24,191 nucleotides of DNA from a virus, in the IMG/VR virus record IMGVR_UViG_3300006121_000047, positions 1 to 24,191 of that record; one strand, 5' to 3'. Position numbers and translations under genes: made by a program. Numbering within the stretch: position 1 is the stretch's first letter; the number at the start of each line of letters is the position of its first letter. Under the pieces are notes generated by a model. It was not told the origin of the DNA and searched no databases. It worked only from the letters and a program-made list of their open reading frames with translations. This document shows, piece by piece, positions 2,383 through 22,659 of the stretch.

Positions 2383-3614
2383 TGGCTACGAACGTCATCA
2401 TCCTTACCAGTGGTACATCATGGACAGTTCCCGCAGATTGGAACAACGCTAACAATACCATCGAAGTTATTGGCGGCGGCGGCGGGGGTAGCAGTTCTGC
2501 GGCTGGATCGCAAGGTGCTGGTGGCGGCGGGGCGTATACTAAATTAACTAATTTTACGTTAACCCCTAGCAGTAGCGCATTTATCCAAATTGGCGGAGGC
2601 GGAGCGGCCGGCTCTGCTGGAACGGACACTTGGCTTAATAAAACAACCAACGCCGCTCCCTCTTCATCTACGGATGGTCTATTAGCAAAAGCTGGCGCTA
2701 CTTCAACATCATCGGCTGGCGGTCTTGGTGGTGCGGCGGCTTCTTGTGTTCCATCAGCGGCGGCGTTTAGCGGCGGTGCGGGTGGTGCTTTTGTAATCAG
2801 TGGCTCTTTCCCCGGCGGCGGTGGTGCTGGTGGCCCTAGCGGCGTTGGTGGTGCGGGCGGTGTTGGTTATTCAGTTGGTGGGTCAGCCGGCGGTGGCGGT
2901 GGTGGAAATAACGGTTCAATTGGCGGCACAGGAACGTCTTCAGCGGGCGGCGCTGGCGGTGCGGGCGGCGGAACGTCAGGCGGTGCGGGTGGTAACGGTG
3001 GCGCATCAGCGACAGCCGCAGGGATTGGCAAAACGGGAACGGGCGGTGGCGGTGGCGGTGGCTCAAGAGACGTTTCGGGTAGTGGTAAGGGCGCTCCCGG
3101 CGGTAGCGGTAATCTTTGGTTAGCTACAACTACCACATCTCAAACAGTTACTATATCGCAAGCATCTCCGGGTGTTTGCACCGTTACAACTGCCCCACAG
3201 CAAGGAACGCCCGTTGTTTTTTCAACAACTGGAACGCTCCCAACGGGATTAACTGCTGGAACTACGTATTATGTTAAAAGTATATATTCCTCAACAATTG
3301 TTTCAACAACCACATTTAACGTATCCGCTTCTCTTGATGGAACAGCGATAAATACTACTAGCGCAGGATCGGGTACACATACTGCAACTTTTACCGCAAT
3401 TGCTGGTTCCGGCGGTGGTTCTGGAGGTGGTTCTTCAACTGCTAATACTGGCGGAAGTTCAACAACTGGTTCTGGCGGTCTATACGGCGGCGGCGGTGGG
3501 TATTGTAACGGAACTACCCCCGCAACTTATGGCACTGGCGCAAAAGGTGTTATTGTCATAACTTATACAACAGGCGGCGTTGCAGCCAATGGTAATTTTT
3601 TCTTACTGATGTAA
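2382..3614 (+). CDS. Glycine-rich tail fibre/adhesin-like protein
   Basis: A 410-residue protein, ATG overlapping the preceding stop by one base. The N-terminus (MATNVIILTSGTSWTVPADW) and the long Gly/Ala/Ser tracts that follow match the general pattern of phage glycine-rich domain proteins, often found at fibre tips. Around residues 245-345 the glycine tract is interrupted by a Thr/Val-rich beta module with PVVFSTTGTLPTGLTAGTTY, after which glycine-rich sequence resumes, so this looks like a domain inserted in a glycine-rich scaffold. The end (GVIVITYTTGG...) matches the closing strand typical of such proteins. Large antisense open frames here are an effect of GGC/GGT-rich codons. Likely a second host-contact protein; receptor unknown. 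Confidence 0.7.
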   Translation: MATNVIILTSGTSWTVPADWNNANNTIEVIGGGGGGSSSAAGSQGAGGGGAYTKLTNFTLTPSSSAFIQIGGGGAAGSAGTDTWLNKTTNAAPSSSTDGLLAKAGATSTSSAGGLGGAAASCVPSAAAFSGGAGGAFVISGSFPGGGGAGGPSGVGGAGGVGYSVGGSAGGGGGGNNGSIGGTGTSSAGGAGGAGGGTSGGAGGNGGASATAAGIGKTGTGGGGGGGSRDVSGSGKGAPGGSGNLWLATTTTSQTVTISQASPGVCTVTTAPQQGTPVVFSTTGTLPTGLTAGTTYYVKSIYSSTIVSTTTFNVSASLDGTAINTTSAGSGTHTATFTAIAGSGGGSGGGSSTANTGGSSTTGSGGLYGGGGGYCNGTTPATYGTGAKGVIVITYTTGGVAANGNFFLLM

Positions 3615-3678
3615 TAAAATATCTTTATATATAACCCTACATGTAACTTGAACTACCCACTATAGTCGGAGAAAAAAA

Positions 3679-15888: not shown

Positions 15889-16245
15889 TCAACGCGAGAC
15901 AATGGTGCCATCTAGCTTGCGCTTCCATCTGGAGTTTTTACCATATGGAAGCGGCGTGCGCGACTGTTTTAATCCTAAGTGATTTTGCTTAGTTCTCTTA
16001 GCTTTAGCTGTCATTTGGTGATCTTTCTTTGTTTTCTCTTTTGCACACGGTTTGCACGTTAACCGAATGTTATCGTCGGTATCAGTGCCGCCCAGTTCAA
16101 GTGCGCGAACATGCTCGTAAATGAATTGCCCAGTCATAAGTTTGACATTGCAAAGCATACATTTGCCGCCTTCGCGTTCCCAAATTGTTAATTTTCGTCG
16201 GCCAGACAGGGAGCCTCGCGCAGTGGTTCCTACATCGTCATTCAT
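15889..16245 (-). CDS. HNH endonuclease-like protein
   Basis: A 118-residue protein, ATG at 16245 with an AAGGAT site about ten bases upstream, overlapping the preceding gene by eight bases. The core is IWEREGGKCMLCNVKLMTGQFIYEHVRALELGGTDTDDNIRLTCKPCAKEKTKKDH: two zinc-type CxxC pairs (Cys29/Cys32 and Cys64/Cys67), the EH of the HNH motif (Glu44-His45), the central Asn59, and His76. The C-terminus is basic (KRTKQNHLGLKQSRTP...RWKRKL), fitting DNA binding. Free-standing HNH proteins in phages can be homing nucleases or packaging and recombination partners; its place in the recombination operon favours a DNA-processing role. Confidence 0.85.
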   Translation of the reverse strand: MNDDVGTTARGSLSGRRKLTIWEREGGKCMLCNVKLMTGQFIYEHVRALELGGTDTDDNIRLTCKPCAKEKTKKDHQMTAKAKRTKQNHLGLKQSRTPLPYGKNSRWKRKLDGTIVSR

Positions 16246-16690
16246 TAAAATTAAATCCTTTTATCCGTCTAAATTCTTTGTAGGGCATTTCGTAGACTAT
16301 TTCATTATAGTCTCGTGGATCGTTGCGATTTGTTTGCCCAGACTTTCTGGAGTAATATTGATTATGGGTAAGTTTTACGTATGCAAAATCATCAAACCAT
16401 TTAACAACAACGAAGGATGGTATGCCTGTTTCTGCCGAAAGCTGTAACCCATAATCAATATCTTTGGTTGTGCAGATATATGTATCGTAATCATTAACTG
16501 AGCGATTTTTTGTTTTAACTTCAATGTAAGCAACGGGGTTATCCCCCCTGAAACAAAGAAAATCAAAAACGCTATAATCGCCCAGTTTTTTATATTCAAA
16601 CCGCCACTTCTTACTCAGAAACTCTATGATCTGATGTTCCCGGTTAAGATCGTTAACGGTTTGGTACGGTATGAACGGGGAATACGTCAC
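16238..16690 (-). CDS. PD-(D/E)XK nuclease-like protein
   Basis: A 150-residue protein, start ATG 16690 overlapping the previous stop by four bases. The stretch LGDYSVFDFLCFRGDNPVAYIEVKTKNRS has the PD-(D/E)XK signature: Asp43, then Glu57-x-Lys59 in a strand-turn-strand, preceded by a helix with Glu19 and Glu23. After it come TKDIDYGLQLSAETGIPSFVVVKWFDDFAYVKL, typical of the helix and strand that complete this fold in Holliday-resolvase- or VRR-like nucleases. Being inside the ERF/Gp157 operon it could be the exonuclease or junction enzyme that works with ERF. Family level is well supported; substrate is inference. Confidence 0.72.
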   Translation of the reverse strand: MTYSPFIPYQTVNDLNREHQIIEFLSKKWRFEYKKLGDYSVFDFLCFRGDNPVAYIEVKTKNRSVNDYDTYICTTKDIDYGLQLSAETGIPSFVVVKWFDDFAYVKLTHNQYYSRKSGQTNRNDPRDYNEIVYEMPYKEFRRIKGFNFNE

Positions 16691-18701: not shown

Positions 18702-18744
18702 TTGCATCCTTTGTAAGAAAAGTGTTTAGGTTTTATATCAGACG

Positions 18745-18791
18745 TTGTGTCCGATAGACGCATGATTTACGTATGATGCAAACTAAGTCAA
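18745..18791. promoter_or_regulatory. Divergent promoter/operator region between the two early operons
   Basis: The 99-bp gap between Gp157 and the rightward operon holds an imperfect palindrome at 18760-18779 (GCATGAT-TTACGT-ATGATGC, six of seven pairs). For the minus strand, TTGACT (18791-18786) and TAAATC (18769-18764) are 16 bases apart. For the plus strand, TATGAT at 18772-18777 is a good -10, but the -35 is weak. Both -10 elements lie inside the palindrome, so one bound repressor could shut both operons; the XRE gene at 19039 is the obvious candidate. Inferred from sequence patterns only. Confidence 0.45.
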
Positions 18792-18800
18792 GAGGGAAAT

Positions 18801-19046
18801 ATGTTACAACTTAATCCACCGATGCCAGTCATCACCCCAAAGGGCAAGGGATATGCTCACGTTTTGATTGATTATGGCGCAGAATTTGATTTGTTGTGGA
18901 TTGTTTTTCAGGACGACACTGGCGAATGCTGGACTTACAATAACAGGGAAATTCGCGCTCAGCCAAATGTTTCAATGGGCAGAAGTGTTGTTGTCACCCC
19001 GGTTGCAGCAAATCGCGAAAGGCCAAGAGTAGTACCCAATGAGTGA
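18801..19046 (+). CDS. Unknown 81-residue protein, first of the rightward operon
   Basis: An 81-residue protein with a GAGGG site before the ATG. The core TPKGKGYAHVLIDYGAEFDLLWIVFQDDTGECWTYNNREIRAQPNVSMGR has the look of a small beta protein and resembles short proteins encoded in the early region of many phages (the PKGKAxAHFLIDYGxExxLxWxVFxDDTGExW pattern). No catalytic residues or membrane segments are apparent. It overlaps the XRE gene by eight bases, so they are co-translated. Function unknown. Confidence 0.75.
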   Translation: MLQLNPPMPVITPKGKGYAHVLIDYGAEFDLLWIVFQDDTGECWTYNNREIRAQPNVSMGRSVVVTPVAANRERPRVVPNE

Positions 19047-19251
19047 TCATCCACTGCGTCAATGGCGCAAAAGAAACAAGGTTATTTTATCTGATTTGGC
19101 TAAAATGGCTAAAACCACGCCGTCATCCATTTCGCGTGTTGAACGTGGAATACAATTGCCGTCCTTGTCGTTAATGGTTCGCATTTGTGCTGCCACGAAG
19201 GGTGAACTTTCATTGATGAACTTTTTGTTTGAACATGATTATCCGGCTTGA
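19039..19251 (+). CDS. XRE-family HTH transcriptional regulator
   Basis: A 70-residue protein made almost only of one helix-turn-helix domain: LRQWRKRNKVILSDLAKMAKTTPSSISRVERGIQLPSLSLMVRICAATKGEL, the standard Cro/C1-type pattern with the recognition helix at TPSSISRVERG. It has no oligomerisation or cleavage domain, so it is more Cro-like than a full repressor. It lies 240 bases downstream of the divergent palindrome at 18760-18779 and probably acts there. Overlaps both neighbours. Confidence 0.88.
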   Translation: MSDHPLRQWRKRNKVILSDLAKMAKTTPSSISRVERGIQLPSLSLMVRICAATKGELSLMNFLFEHDYPA

Positions 19252-19627
19252 ATTGCCTTTAGCACCTAGCACTAACAGGCTGTGGAAAGTTGGCAAGGGT
19301 GGGCGCATGTACAAGTCACCCGAATACGTAGCTTGGCTTGATGAGGCGGGTTGGATGATTAAAGCCCAAACCAAAAATCAAGTTAACGGTCCTTATGTGA
19401 TTCACATATCGGCCAGTAAACCCGACAAGAGGCGGCGGGATTTAGACAACCTTTTAAAATCTACGAGCGACCTTCTCGTAAAAACAAAAATAGTTGACGA
19501 TGATTCAGAATGCCACGCGATTGCCGCCGAATGGTCGGAGCATAGCGCCCCAATGATCGTGACTGTTTATGGGATTCTGGAAAGTGCCGACGAATGGAAC
19601 AAGAGCCGCAGACTGTTGATGAACTAA
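19235..19627 (+). CDS. rusA: RusA-family Holliday junction resolvase
   Basis: About 130 residues from ATG 19235, inside the end of the XRE gene; TTG 19229 is an alternative, and no clear ribosome-binding site is visible, so translational coupling is likely. RusA features: LPLAPSTNRLWKVGKGGRMYKSPEYVAWL at the start, then the acidic site KPDKRRRDLDNLLKSTSDLLVKTKIVDDDSE with Asp69, Asp71 and the later Asp cluster 88-90 that coordinate metal. RusA enzymes cut four-way DNA junctions, resolving recombination intermediates before packaging. It pairs logically with the ERF annealase in the divergent operon. Confidence 0.92.
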   Translation: MIIRLELPLAPSTNRLWKVGKGGRMYKSPEYVAWLDEAGWMIKAQTKNQVNGPYVIHISASKPDKRRRDLDNLLKSTSDLLVKTKIVDDDSECHAIAAEWSEHSAPMIVTVYGILESADEWNKSRRLLMN

Positions 19628-20016
19628 GAGCCAGATATTTGGCTGTCAAAAAACGGCTTGGTGGAGTTGCTGGACCCACTGGAGTTGTGCCGTACGAGCG
19701 TGTCAATTTGCCGCATGCTCTAGTGCGGGACGAGCGCCCAGTTTCGTTGTGGTCAGTTCGATTGCCATGCCAAAAATTTACGGCAATGTTGCGTGAAGTG
19801 GCGGACATGCACGGTTTAGACCCAGAAATTGTTAAGAGCCAAACACTGAAGCAAAACGTGTTAAAAGTGCGACAAGAACTGTTTTACCGGGCTAAAAATG
19901 AATTGAATTTGGGGTACTCTCAGATTGGTCATTTGATGCACACTACCCACTCAACGGTAATTTACGGCGTTAAGCGCCACGAGAAAAGACTTGCACAGGG
20001 CGCAAAAACGCTCTAG
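19594..20016 (+). CDS. DnaA-domain-IV-like DNA-binding protein
   Basis: A 140-residue protein overlapping rusA by 34 bases. Residues about 65-135 (FTAMLREVADMHGLDPEIVKSQTLKQNVLKVRQELFYRAKNELNLGYSQIGHLMHTTHSTVIYGVKRHEKRL) follow the DnaA C-terminal domain, including the signature helix-turn-helix ending xIGxxMxxxHSTVxYGVK (DnaA consensus ..GRDHSTV..A). The Arg-Asp before the His is replaced by Thr-Thr. There is no AAA+ domain; the N-terminal 60 residues are unrelated (KKRLGGVAGPTGVVPYERVNLPHALV). Domain IV is what reads DnaA boxes. The noncoding segment just downstream contains three TTATCC cores, so it may be an origin-binding protein, or a factor that competes with host DnaA. Confidence 0.78.
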   Translation: MEQEPQTVDELRARYLAVKKRLGGVAGPTGVVPYERVNLPHALVRDERPVSLWSVRLPCQKFTAMLREVADMHGLDPEIVKSQTLKQNVLKVRQELFYRAKNELNLGYSQIGHLMHTTHSTVIYGVKRHEKRLAQGAKTL

Positions 20017-20068
20017 CTTATCCCTGTCTTCTGCTCCTCCTTCAGGAGATATAGATAACGGTGACTTG

Positions 20069-20104
20069 ACCCGCCTCCGCCCTTGTGACGGGGGTGGGTT
20101 CTTT
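20069..20104 (+). terminator. Rho-independent terminator after the DnaA-like gene
   Basis: ACCCGCCTCCG at 20069-20079 pairs with 20089-20099 to give an 11-bp, GC-rich stem with two G-U wobbles and a nine-base loop, followed by TTCTTT. It closes the rightward operon started near 18801 and separates it from the helicase-primase transcript. Confidence 0.75.
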
Positions 20105-20111
20105 CAAACAG

Positions 20112-20139
20112 TTGACAAAAACATAACGAATCAGATAGT
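20112..20139 (+). promoter_or_regulatory. Sigma70-like promoter with a GANTC site in the spacer
   Basis: A perfect -35 TTGACA (20112-20117) and a -10 GATAGT (20134-20139) are separated by 16 bases. The spacer contains GAATC (20128-20132), a CcrM/GcrA-type GANTC methylation site. It begins eight bases after the terminator and would drive the helicase and primase genes, with transcription starting at the edge of the palindromic array. In Caulobacter, GcrA acts with sigma70 at promoters whose GANTC sites lie near the -10/-35 elements, so the geometry is suggestive. Confidence 0.55.
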
Positions 20140-20246
20140 CGCGCGTGCGGCTTACTGTACAGTAATACTAAGTTATCCATGTATAGCTATACAGCCTTAC
20201 CAAGGAAGGGATAACTAAGGTAGCCTGTACAGTACCACGTGCGCGA
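20139..20246. repeat. Nested inverted-repeat array, candidate origin or operator
   Basis: Perfect palindromes lie at 20152-20165 (TTACTGTACAGTAA), 20180-20193 (TGTATAGCTATACA) and 20225-20232 (CTGTACAG). Larger arms also pair: TCGCGC 20139-20144 with GCGCGA 20241-20246, TACTGTACAG 20153-20162 with CTGTACAGTA 20225-20234, and AGTTATCC 20171-20178 with GGATAACT 20209-20216; the last two share the same centre near 20193.5. CCTT-ACC-AAGG at 20195-20205 forms a small hairpin inside. With the TTATCC at 20018-20023, the gap has three DnaA-box cores. The whole 20017-20270 gap has no credible gene. Confidence 0.7.
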
Positions 20247-20270
20247 AAAGCTTCAGCATGGATACCAAAA

Positions 20271-21761
20271 ATGACAAAAGCAATTCTTCGGGATTATCAA
20301 ACGGACGCTATTGCCAAGCTTCGCAAGTCGCTATCAAGCGGACACAAGCGACCAGTTGTTCAAATGCCTACGGGAGCGGGCAAAACCATTGCGGCGGCTG
20401 AAATTGTTCGCATGGCTTTGGAAAAGGGCAAGCGGGTTTTGTTTTGCGTCCCATCGCTCAGCTTGATTGATCAGACGGTTGAGAGATTTGAGGGTCACGA
20501 CATTTGGGAGATTGGCGTAATTCAAGCGATGCATGAGCGCACCGATCCAACGCAACCTGTACAGGTCTGCTCAGTTCAGACATTGGCTCGACGGAAAATT
20601 CCCAAGGCTGATTTGATTATCGTGGACGAATGCCACGTGTTGTTCAAGTTTTACGAAGTTTGGTTTAACAGCCCAGAGTGGTCAAATGTTCCAATTGTCG
20701 GCCTGACTGCAACGCCTTGGGCAAAAGGCATGGGCCGCTTATACGATGACTTGATCATTGGCACGACCACGCAAAGCCTGATTGACCAACGTCACCTGTC
20801 GGATTTCAAAGTTTACGCGCCTTCAAGCCCGGATTTAACTGGCGTTAAGGTAGTGGCTGGCGATTACAATAAGCTTCAGCTTGGTCAGGCAATGGACAAA
20901 GCCCCACTGGTAGCTGATATAATTTCAACGTGGTTGGAGAAGGGTGAAAACAGGCCGACCATTTGCTTCGCCGTCAATCGGGTACATGCCAAGCATATCC
21001 AAACCCTATTTCTTGAAGCGGGCGTTCCAACGGGTTACATGGACGCTTTCACCGACATTGCTGACCGGGCAGTAATTGCCAAACAATTCGCTGATGGCGA
21101 GTTGAGGATCGTCTGCAACGTGGGTGTTTTAACTACTGGGGTTGATTGGGATGTTCGATGTATCATTCTTGCCAGACCAACCAAGTCAGAAATTCTTTAC
21201 ACCCAAATGATTGGTCGGGGACTTCGGACGGCAAAAGGTAAGGATCACTGTCTTATTTTAGATCACAGCGATACAACATTGCGCCTTGGATTTGTCACCG
21301 ACATCGCTTACGACAGATTGGATGACGGCAAAGGAAAGGGAGTTTCTGAGCGTGAGAAAAAAATTGCACTCCCGAAAGCTTGTTCCAAATGCGCGTTCCT
21401 CAAGCCTCCCAGAACGCCAGTATGTCCAGCGTGTGGTTTCAAGGCTGACCCTGTTGATACGGTTGAAAGTGTTACAGGTGAATTGCTTGAACTTCGCCGT
21501 GATGGGAAACAACAAAAGCCAGTTTACACCACGCAGGAAAAAGAAACATTCTACGGAGAATTGCGTGGCTACGCGATCACTCGTGGATTCAAAGACGGGT
21601 GGTCTTATTGGGCATACAAGGATAAATTTGGGGTTGGCCCCGCTAATACGTTCAAAAACATCTCGCTCGCTCCGTCTGCGGCCACGCTGAGTTGGATCAA
21701 GCATCGCAACATAGTGAAAGCAAAACAACGTGACAAACATGAACAACGTAAAACGGGCTAA
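20271..21761 (+). CDS. SF2 DEAD/DEAH-type helicase with C-terminal zinc finger
   Basis: A 496-residue protein. Superfamily 2 motifs in order: Q-like LRDYQ (7-10), Walker A MPTGAGKT (32-39), Walker B DECH (119-122), motif III TAT (146-148), motif V-type LTTGVDW (288-293) and motif VI QMIGRGLR (312-319). This is the layout of the SSL2/UvrB-like 'res subunit' helicases common in phages. After the helicase core, CSKC (371-374) and CPAC (385-388) form a four-Cys zinc finger, followed by a helical domain to the end. The start has only a weak ribosome-binding site. It is coupled to the primase gene by a 32-base overlap and probably unwinds DNA in phage replication. Confidence 0.9.
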   Translation: MTKAILRDYQTDAIAKLRKSLSSGHKRPVVQMPTGAGKTIAAAEIVRMALEKGKRVLFCVPSLSLIDQTVERFEGHDIWEIGVIQAMHERTDPTQPVQVCSVQTLARRKIPKADLIIVDECHVLFKFYEVWFNSPEWSNVPIVGLTATPWAKGMGRLYDDLIIGTTTQSLIDQRHLSDFKVYAPSSPDLTGVKVVAGDYNKLQLGQAMDKAPLVADIISTWLEKGENRPTICFAVNRVHAKHIQTLFLEAGVPTGYMDAFTDIADRAVIAKQFADGELRIVCNVGVLTTGVDWDVRCIILARPTKSEILYTQMIGRGLRTAKGKDHCLILDHSDTTLRLGFVTDIAYDRLDDGKGKGVSEREKKIALPKACSKCAFLKPPRTPVCPACGFKADPVDTVESVTGELLELRRDGKQQKPVYTTQEKETFYGELRGYAITRGFKDGWSYWAYKDKFGVGPANTFKNISLAPSAATLSWIKHRNIVKAKQRDKHEQRKTG

Positions 21762-22659
21762 AGACATCGCAAAAGGCCACTGGCGGCAATTGCTCCCACA
21801 ATTGGGTGTTGATCAAAAATATCTCACGGGCAAGCATGGGCCATGCCCATCGTGCGGCGGCAAAGATCGGTTTCGTTTCTCCGACAAGAACGGGGACGGA
21901 ATGTTTTACTGCTCAATGTGCGGCACGAATGACGGTTTCAAGCTTGTAGAAATGGCTACTGGTCAGTCGTTCCGGCAAATTGCTGATCGTGTGTCGGAGA
22001 TATTGGGACAACCCACCGCACCAGCCCCACGTGAAGATGATCAACGTATAGAGCATAGACGGGCTATTAAACGCATTTGGGAGGCTTCCAGCCGCCCGTC
22101 AGCGGATGGGCCAGTATCCAAGTACCTAACGAAGCGTTTTGGGCTTGTGTGGGCTTCTAAATCGGTTAGGGAATTTATTGGCAAAAACCACAACCTGATG
22201 GTGTGTAAAATACACGGGCCAGACAATATGGCTCACAACGTCCACCTCACCTACATCGACAATCATGGCAACAGGGCCAAGGTTGATGTGGCAAAGCGAA
22301 TCATGTCGGGGCAAGTGCCGTCTGGCTCTGCAATTAGACTTGCGGAACCCGACATCCATATGGGCGTGGCTGAAGGCATCGAGACGGCTATAGCCGCCTC
22401 TGTCATGTACGGCTTGCCAGTATGGTCAGCATTAAATGCGCATAATATGGCTAAATGGGTACCGCCGGCAATTGCACAACGAATTACTGTGTTTGGCGAC
22501 AACGATTTAAGTTTTACAGGCCACGCTGCCGCTTACGCATTGGCTAGGCGGCTACGTCTTCAGTATAAGCTTCAGGTGGAAGTTTTGATCCCGGAGACTG
22601 AAGGGCAGGATTGGGCAGATGTTCTCGCTCTGGCTTCCAAGGATCAAGTCCAGCGATGA
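21730..22659 (+). CDS. DNA primase: zinc-ribbon plus Toprim, no helicase domain
   Basis: A 309-residue protein from GTG 21730 (ATG 21739 is equally possible, 306 residues), overlapping the helicase end. Residues about 35-70 form a primase zinc ribbon: GPCPSCGGKDRFRFSD...FYCSMCG with Cys39, Cys42, Cys61, Cys64. Residues about 205-300 form a Toprim fold: VAEGIETAIAAS (catalytic Glu) and ITVFGDNDLSFTG (Asp pair), with QDWADVLA near the end. This matches the P4-alpha/phage primase group minus the D5-type helicase. It probably makes primers with the upstream SF2 helicase as partner. The last 116 bases overlap an antisense HTH gene. Confidence 0.87.
   Translation: MTNMNNVKRAKDIAKGHWRQLLPQLGVDQKYLTGKHGPCPSCGGKDRFRFSDKNGDGMFYCSMCGTNDGFKLVEMATGQSFRQIADRVSEILGQPTAPAPREDDQRIEHRRAIKRIWEASSRPSADGPVSKYLTKRFGLVWASKSVREFIGKNHNLMVCKIHGPDNMAHNVHLTYIDNHGNRAKVDVAKRIMSGQVPSGSAIRLAEPDIHMGVAEGIETAIAASVMYGLPVWSALNAHNMAKWVPPAIAQRITVFGDNDLSFTGHAAAYALARRLRLQYKLQVEVLIPETEGQDWADVLALASKDQVQR

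Follow-up and report, generated by a model that had tools for sequence, protein, structure and literature searches.

A double-hairpin RNA element with an anti-Shine-Dalgarno loop downstream of a DnaA-domain-IV gene in an uncultured phage lineage

Genes flanking the gap and their relatives

The window analyzed here is a stretch of 24,191 nucleotides from an uncultured virus (IMG/VR record IMGVR_UViG_3300006121_000047), in which a 254-bp gap (20017-20270) separates a DnaA-domain-IV-like gene from a helicase gene (Table 1). From left to right, the gap contains a stop codon, a hairpin with the loop CTCCTCCTT, the segment GATAACGGTGACTTG, an intrinsic terminator, the hexamers TTGACA-16-GATAGT, and palindromes together with 37-nt arms. 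An earlier note had described the gap as a noncoding, palindrome-packed candidate replication origin between a DnaA-IV-like gene and genes for helicase and primase, and its gene assignments held. The upstream protein matched the Bac_DnaA_C profile (PF08299) with E=1.1e-9 and 38.7 bits against a gathering score of 31.5, in agreement with Foldseek, and the downstream products matched phrog_16 and phrog_510/Toprim. The gap is indeed noncoding, since in relatives indels interrupt the reading frames that span it. The conserved left block was considered separately as a coding segment and rejected, its frames being broken by indels in the nearest relative, L004.

Table 1. Features in and around the gap (coordinates of the window)
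Feature	Position	Strand	Basis or remark
Small HTH_3 regulator gene	19039..19251	+	PF01381, E=1.8e-9; candidate palindrome binder
DnaA-domain-IV protein gene, 140 aa	19594..20016	+	PF08299, alignment, AlphaFold model
Double-hairpin RNA element (3'UTR / candidate sRNA)	20023..20104	+	Covariance model R1, covariation
Hairpin 1, stem TGTCTTCTG/CAGGAGATA, loop CUCCUCCUU at 20034-20042	20025..20051	+	Fold; stem drift with pairing kept
Linker GATAACGGTGACTTG containing GATAACGGTGAC	20054..20068	+	GATAACGGTGAC invariant in 8/8 sequences
Intrinsic terminator hairpin CCCGCCTCC/GGGGGTGGG, then TTCTTT	20070..20104	+	Strong terminator
Sigma-70-like promoter TTGACA-16-GATAGT, helicase operon (putative)	20112..20139	+	Consensus match
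Imperfect inverted repeat / leader hairpin holding the palindromes, lineage-specific	20142..20245	+	Fold z
Palindrome TGTATAGCTATACA, candidate operator	20180..20193	.	Exact in L008 and L010; one change in L004 and L011
phrog_16 DNA helicase gene, downstream of the gap	20271..21761	+	
Toprim primase gene, phrog_510	21730..22659	+	

Foldseek searches with the AlphaFold model of the DnaA-IV protein returned DnaA DNA-binding domains as top matches (1j1v, rmsd 1.1; also 3pvp). The model superposed on the DNA-binding domains of E. coli and M. tuberculosis DnaA, and the phage protein has the same DNA-binding fold as DnaA domain IV. Alignment revealed a conserved N-terminal motif of its own, ELxAxYxAVxxRLGG...GxVP, which is perhaps a partner-binding segment; the model places an N-terminal helix at residues 8-21 with low confidence. 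The motif (window 19594-19720) was common to the DnaA-IV proteins of both groups of relatives described below (L004-L020, L063-L074). In E. coli DnaA, the TTA half of the box is recognized by R399 (PMC5742627). The equivalent arginine, the reader of the 5' TTA half, appears to be retained in the phage protein (KVRQ) and the helix recognizing the 3' half is changed (THST versus DHTT in E. coli), which makes a modified box sharing only TTAT plausible. No relatives of the DnaA-IV protein were found in a search of bacterial genomes.

Viral contigs scanned with the helicase and DnaA proteins fell into three groups. Group 1 comprised close relatives with DnaA-IV proteins 62-90% identical and gaps of 183-257 bp. 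Group 2 comprised 11 distinct contigs (a few of them nearly identical) in which the DnaA-IV protein shared 27-36% identity and retained the DnaA-like (R/K)DHT recognition helix; here the gene overlapped the helicase start (-14 to -23 bp) and there was no gap. The remaining contigs carried the helicase only. The 11 contigs keep the gene order without a gap, and gene order therefore outlives the gap. The overlap of the dnaA-IV gene with the helicase start was observed in the distant phages L014, L015, L016, L019, L020 and L063-L074; in these phages the DNA target of the protein, if any, therefore lies elsewhere than between the two genes.

The double-hairpin element and its kinship with known RNAs

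Within group 1, the left part of the gap was strongly conserved (L004, L008-L011/L022 and L042/L044/L045 (=L053-L055)) and the right half aligned poorly. The most solid new fact of this analysis is a phage RNA element in the left part, supported by covariation, that combines an anti-Shine-Dalgarno loop with a terminator. A covariance model, R1, was constructed from six relatives only (L008-L011, L053 and L055), leaving out the window and L004. R1 matched the window with 51.5 bits (E 2e-9 to 8e-9) and L004 with 45.4 bits; no other place in 19 whole records scored better than E 0.1, and the model missed the element in L006, L007 and L018. In alignment A6, which was fitted to the structure and leans towards it, 98.2% of cells paired and double-sided (compensatory) changes occurred at 11 of the 16 pairs, as counted over seven distinct sequences after removal of one chance match. 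The covariation score was 0.54 compared with at most 0.15 when the partners were slid, and none of 500 shuffles reached any of the measures. Inspection of the raw sequences by eye showed the hairpins too, as did single-sequence folds, and the fold of 20014-20107 gave z=-3.1. The earlier note had offered an RNA-level role as a fallback, and for the left third of the gap the R1 match and the covariation bear this out.

Mean pairwise identity across the relatives was 57% in stem 1, 74% in loop 1 and 96% in the linker, and stem 1 still pairs. The first loop of the family reads (C/U)UCCUCC, and CUCCUCCUU is complementary to Shine-Dalgarno sequences. In most relatives the terminator loop carries CUCC too, but this phage has lost it. 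GATAACGGTGAC occurred once per genome wherever the element was present, with no second place in the genomes examined. Pairing does not account for these 12 invariant nucleotides of the linker, and they could be a DNA site.

Bacterial chromosomes in Rhizobiales, Burkholderia and Neisseria are known to encode anti-Shine-Dalgarno small RNAs. The ar14 RNAs (RF02344; NfeR1 of Sinorhizobium meliloti) form three hairpins that each expose CCUCCUCCC, with identical motifs on very different stems and pairing at ribosome-binding sites (PMC10746234). In the Burkholderia double-hairpin RNAs (RF02278), CU-rich unpaired stretches are predicted to cover ribosome-binding sites (PMC5688073). The phage element shares the CCUCC-type loop of ar14 (in most relatives in the terminator loop too), and as in ar14 its stems are free to drift and its loops are held. 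Unlike ar14, it is phage-borne at an operon 3' end, has an invariant GATAACGGTGAC linker, and forms two hairpins, with UCCUCC in loop 1 of all sequences and, in this phage, no CUCC in the terminator and hence one CCUCC loop only. The anti-hemB (RF02837) and Burkholderia RNAs likewise have two hairpins and, in unpaired CU-rich stretches, complementarity to ribosome-binding sites, and the general features of anti-Shine-Dalgarno double-hairpin sRNAs were all found in the phage element: two covarying hairpins, a CU-rich loop complementary to Shine-Dalgarno sequences and a terminal U tract.

Permissive Rfam scans gave matches of 11.8-26.2 bits, all far below the gathering cut-offs of 41-59 bits. 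The highest-scoring was ar14, on the same segment and strand and over the full length of the model, with 26.2 bits in L008 (E 0.003) and E values of 0.011 in L011, 0.022 in L009 and 0.52 in L053; in the window ar14 was the sole match, at 11.8 bits (E 6) against its cut-off of 58.8. Anti-hemB reached 23.3 bits in L009 (E 0.0015; cut-off 49.5). L018, which R1 missed, gave very weak matches to suhB/MmgR, anti-hemB and NmsRb, and RF02278 gave no match in these scans. A hairpin with a C-rich loop followed by a terminator can draw such weak matches, and because the scores lie below the curated cut-offs the element was assigned to none of these families. Host copies were sought as TCCTCC-N8-20-GATAACGGTGAC in 257 Gb of genomes, which yielded 79 scattered matches where an estimated ~97 were expected by chance; these were rejected as host copies, their number being about that of chance and none of a mostly proteobacterial subset matching R1. 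A blastn search of named phages gave no match to the element. Rfam does not contain the RNA family, and the searches of named-phage and reference-genome collections gave no match to it; no phage anti-Shine-Dalgarno RNA of this kind was found in the literature searched, which is weak evidence of absence.

Putative promoter, palindromes and inverted repeat before the helicase gene

The three perfect palindromes of the earlier note were recovered as TTACTGTACAGTAA (20152-20165), TGTATAGCTATACA and CTGTACAG (at 20225), as were the nested arms around a center at 20193.5, which are 37 nt long (20142-20178 and 20209-20245) and 70% complementary. The inverted-repeat score of the gap was reached by none of 300 dinucleotide shuffles of the gap; a 254-nt stretch elsewhere in the window, from 16257 on, scored equally. 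The window also carries a perfect 15-nt inverted repeat with arms 77 nt apart (16355-16369 / 16447-16461) inside a PDDEXK nuclease gene (16238-16690, minus strand). A CGCGCG tract was dismissed as a special mark, such tracts being frequent elsewhere in these genomes. The expected conservation of the repeats was seen in part: beyond L004 it failed for the arms and for two of the palindromes, and it stood for TGTATAGCTATACA, the only right-half part recurring in several relatives (L004, L008, L010 and L011).

Where this phage has the left arm, L004 has direct repeats, GATACwTAGATAAC, in four 14-nt copies. The left arm agrees with the reverse complement of the L004 right arm at 30/40 positions and with the L004 left arm at 26/42, which suggests inverted copying; the large quasi-palindrome would then be a lineage-specific product of repeat turnover. 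The promoter-like hexamers have a counterpart in L004 (TTGACA-16-GATAAC), and the promoter-like matches numbered five against about three expected. From these consensus matches and its position, 20112-20270 is most simply read as the region in which the helicase-primase operon has its promoter, operator and 5' leader. For the palindromes, just downstream of the putative promoter, an operator is the likeliest role, and either the DnaA-IV protein or the small HTH_3 protein could be the repressor that binds them.

Weighing the readings of the gap

The proposal of a replication origin at the palindromes fared less well, and most of the tests that the earlier note had set out for it, including a GC-skew turn at the gap, failed. 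TTATCC cores are present at 20018, at 20173 and reversed at 20209, and no other 250-bp stretch of the 24-kb fragment is as dense in TTATCC or in GATAAC; the background of the window predicts 0.23 such cores in the gap, not about 0.1. The match to seven of nine DnaA-box positions at 20173 (TTATCCATG) is real but not notable as a single site, because TTATNCACA with one mismatch occurs at 18 other places in the window. No full TTATNCACA box occurs anywhere in the window and the best in the gap is 7/9, so there is no box cluster. The local cumulative GC-skew minimum lies 0.8-1.35 kb upstream in 8/8 genomes examined, and in this phage it adjoins a divergent gene switch (18707-18801). An origin by DnaA boxes was rejected on the box scan, the skew and the relatives. 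Several relatives have an AT-rich tract and repeats with differing motifs; no AT tract was found in the window or L004. In L007 (4909-4980), L018 (4878-4980) and the gap of L006, tandem repeats TGTAATGGATATCT, TTGACTTCCAGTGC and CCAGAGTAATGTAAT are followed by a TATATATA tract before the helicase gene, an arrangement that looks origin- or promoter-like, unlike that of this phage.

An origin of another kind, at which the DnaA-IV protein, bound to repeats and TTATC/GATAAC sites of the gap, would recruit helicase and primase, is improbable. The DnaA-IV fold of the upstream protein, its apparently kept arginine with the plausible TTAT-sharing box, the clustering of short TTATC/GATAAC motifs in the gap of this phage and of L004 (GATAAC peaks of three and five copies, each in the densest 250 bp of its record), and the iteron-like repeats of L004 and, with AT-rich tracts, of L007 and L018 leave an origin or operator bound by this protein possible. 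However, repeats and motifs differ among relatives with 62-66% identical DnaA-IV proteins, the gaps of L007 and L018 contain no TTATC, the skew minimum is displaced, and the 11 group 2 contigs have the gene and no gap. DnaA's AAA+ and helicase-loading domains are missing from the 140-aa protein, and compared with DnaA and oriC-type boxes the phage has no full box and its clade a changed recognition helix. Still less probable is a role of the 20142-20245 hairpin as a leader RNA switch for the helicase gene. Its fold is very stable (z -4.7), and L004 reaches z -3.6 by partly different pairs, but L007, L008, L009 and L011 have no comparable fold (z -0.7 to +0.7) and the likeness of the left arm to the L004 right arm in reverse complement is what inverted copying would give. 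In L053, a different AT-rich hairpin (3512-3630; z -2.1) fills the right half of the gap.

For the left part, the element appears to be a phage-borne 3'UTR or sRNA of the anti-Shine-Dalgarno kind, and we infer a function in trans. It lies immediately behind the dnaA-IV stop and would be transcribed as the 3' end of the regulator-RusA-DnaA-IV operon, with the intrinsic terminator at its end and the first loop (in most relatives the terminator loop too) predicted to expose a CUCC/UCCUCC motif. As a small RNA, whether released directly or made by processing, it could base-pair through its loops with the Shine-Dalgarno regions of phage or host mRNAs and repress their translation, which would parallel the action reported or predicted for ar14 and the Burkholderia double-hairpin RNAs; the invariant linker may offer a further site of contact. 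A scan of phage start regions with loop 1 revealed no target consistent across genomes, and the erf start region ranked high in 2/4 genomes. This region, GUCAUCAGGGGAGCCUAAACAAUG (window 18199, minus strand; G009 17318), is identical in two relatives with a high loop 1 pairing rank, a conservation that may come simply from overlap with the upstream gene. The left hairpins might instead be merely a tandem terminator or processing structure with a C-rich loop that has no target, next to an operator. The strong terminator fits this view, as does the need for stable hairpins at a 3' end, but the loop and linker are held while the stems drift, and a terminator needs neither a conserved loop nor an invariant 12-nt linker; we regard this explanation as rather unlikely.

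Taken together, the gap is better explained as two neighboring things, a conserved double-hairpin RNA and a fast-changing helicase promoter/leader. We give a probability of about 0.6 to the whole composite, in which an operon-3'-end double-hairpin RNA with a terminator and an anti-Shine-Dalgarno loop would act as an sRNA and the right part would serve as promoter, operator and leader. That this uncultured phage lineage carries its own trans-acting anti-Shine-Dalgarno sRNA, made from the 3' end of the DnaA-IV operon and silencing host or phage mRNAs, is a tentative proposal to which we give slightly less than even odds. The analysis corrects a tempting misreading, as palindromes next to a DnaA-like gene are not necessarily an origin. 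If the proposal is true, an anti-Shine-Dalgarno element fixed at one genome position would suggest that phages redirect translation by a bacterial trick, and it would provide a short, testable target.
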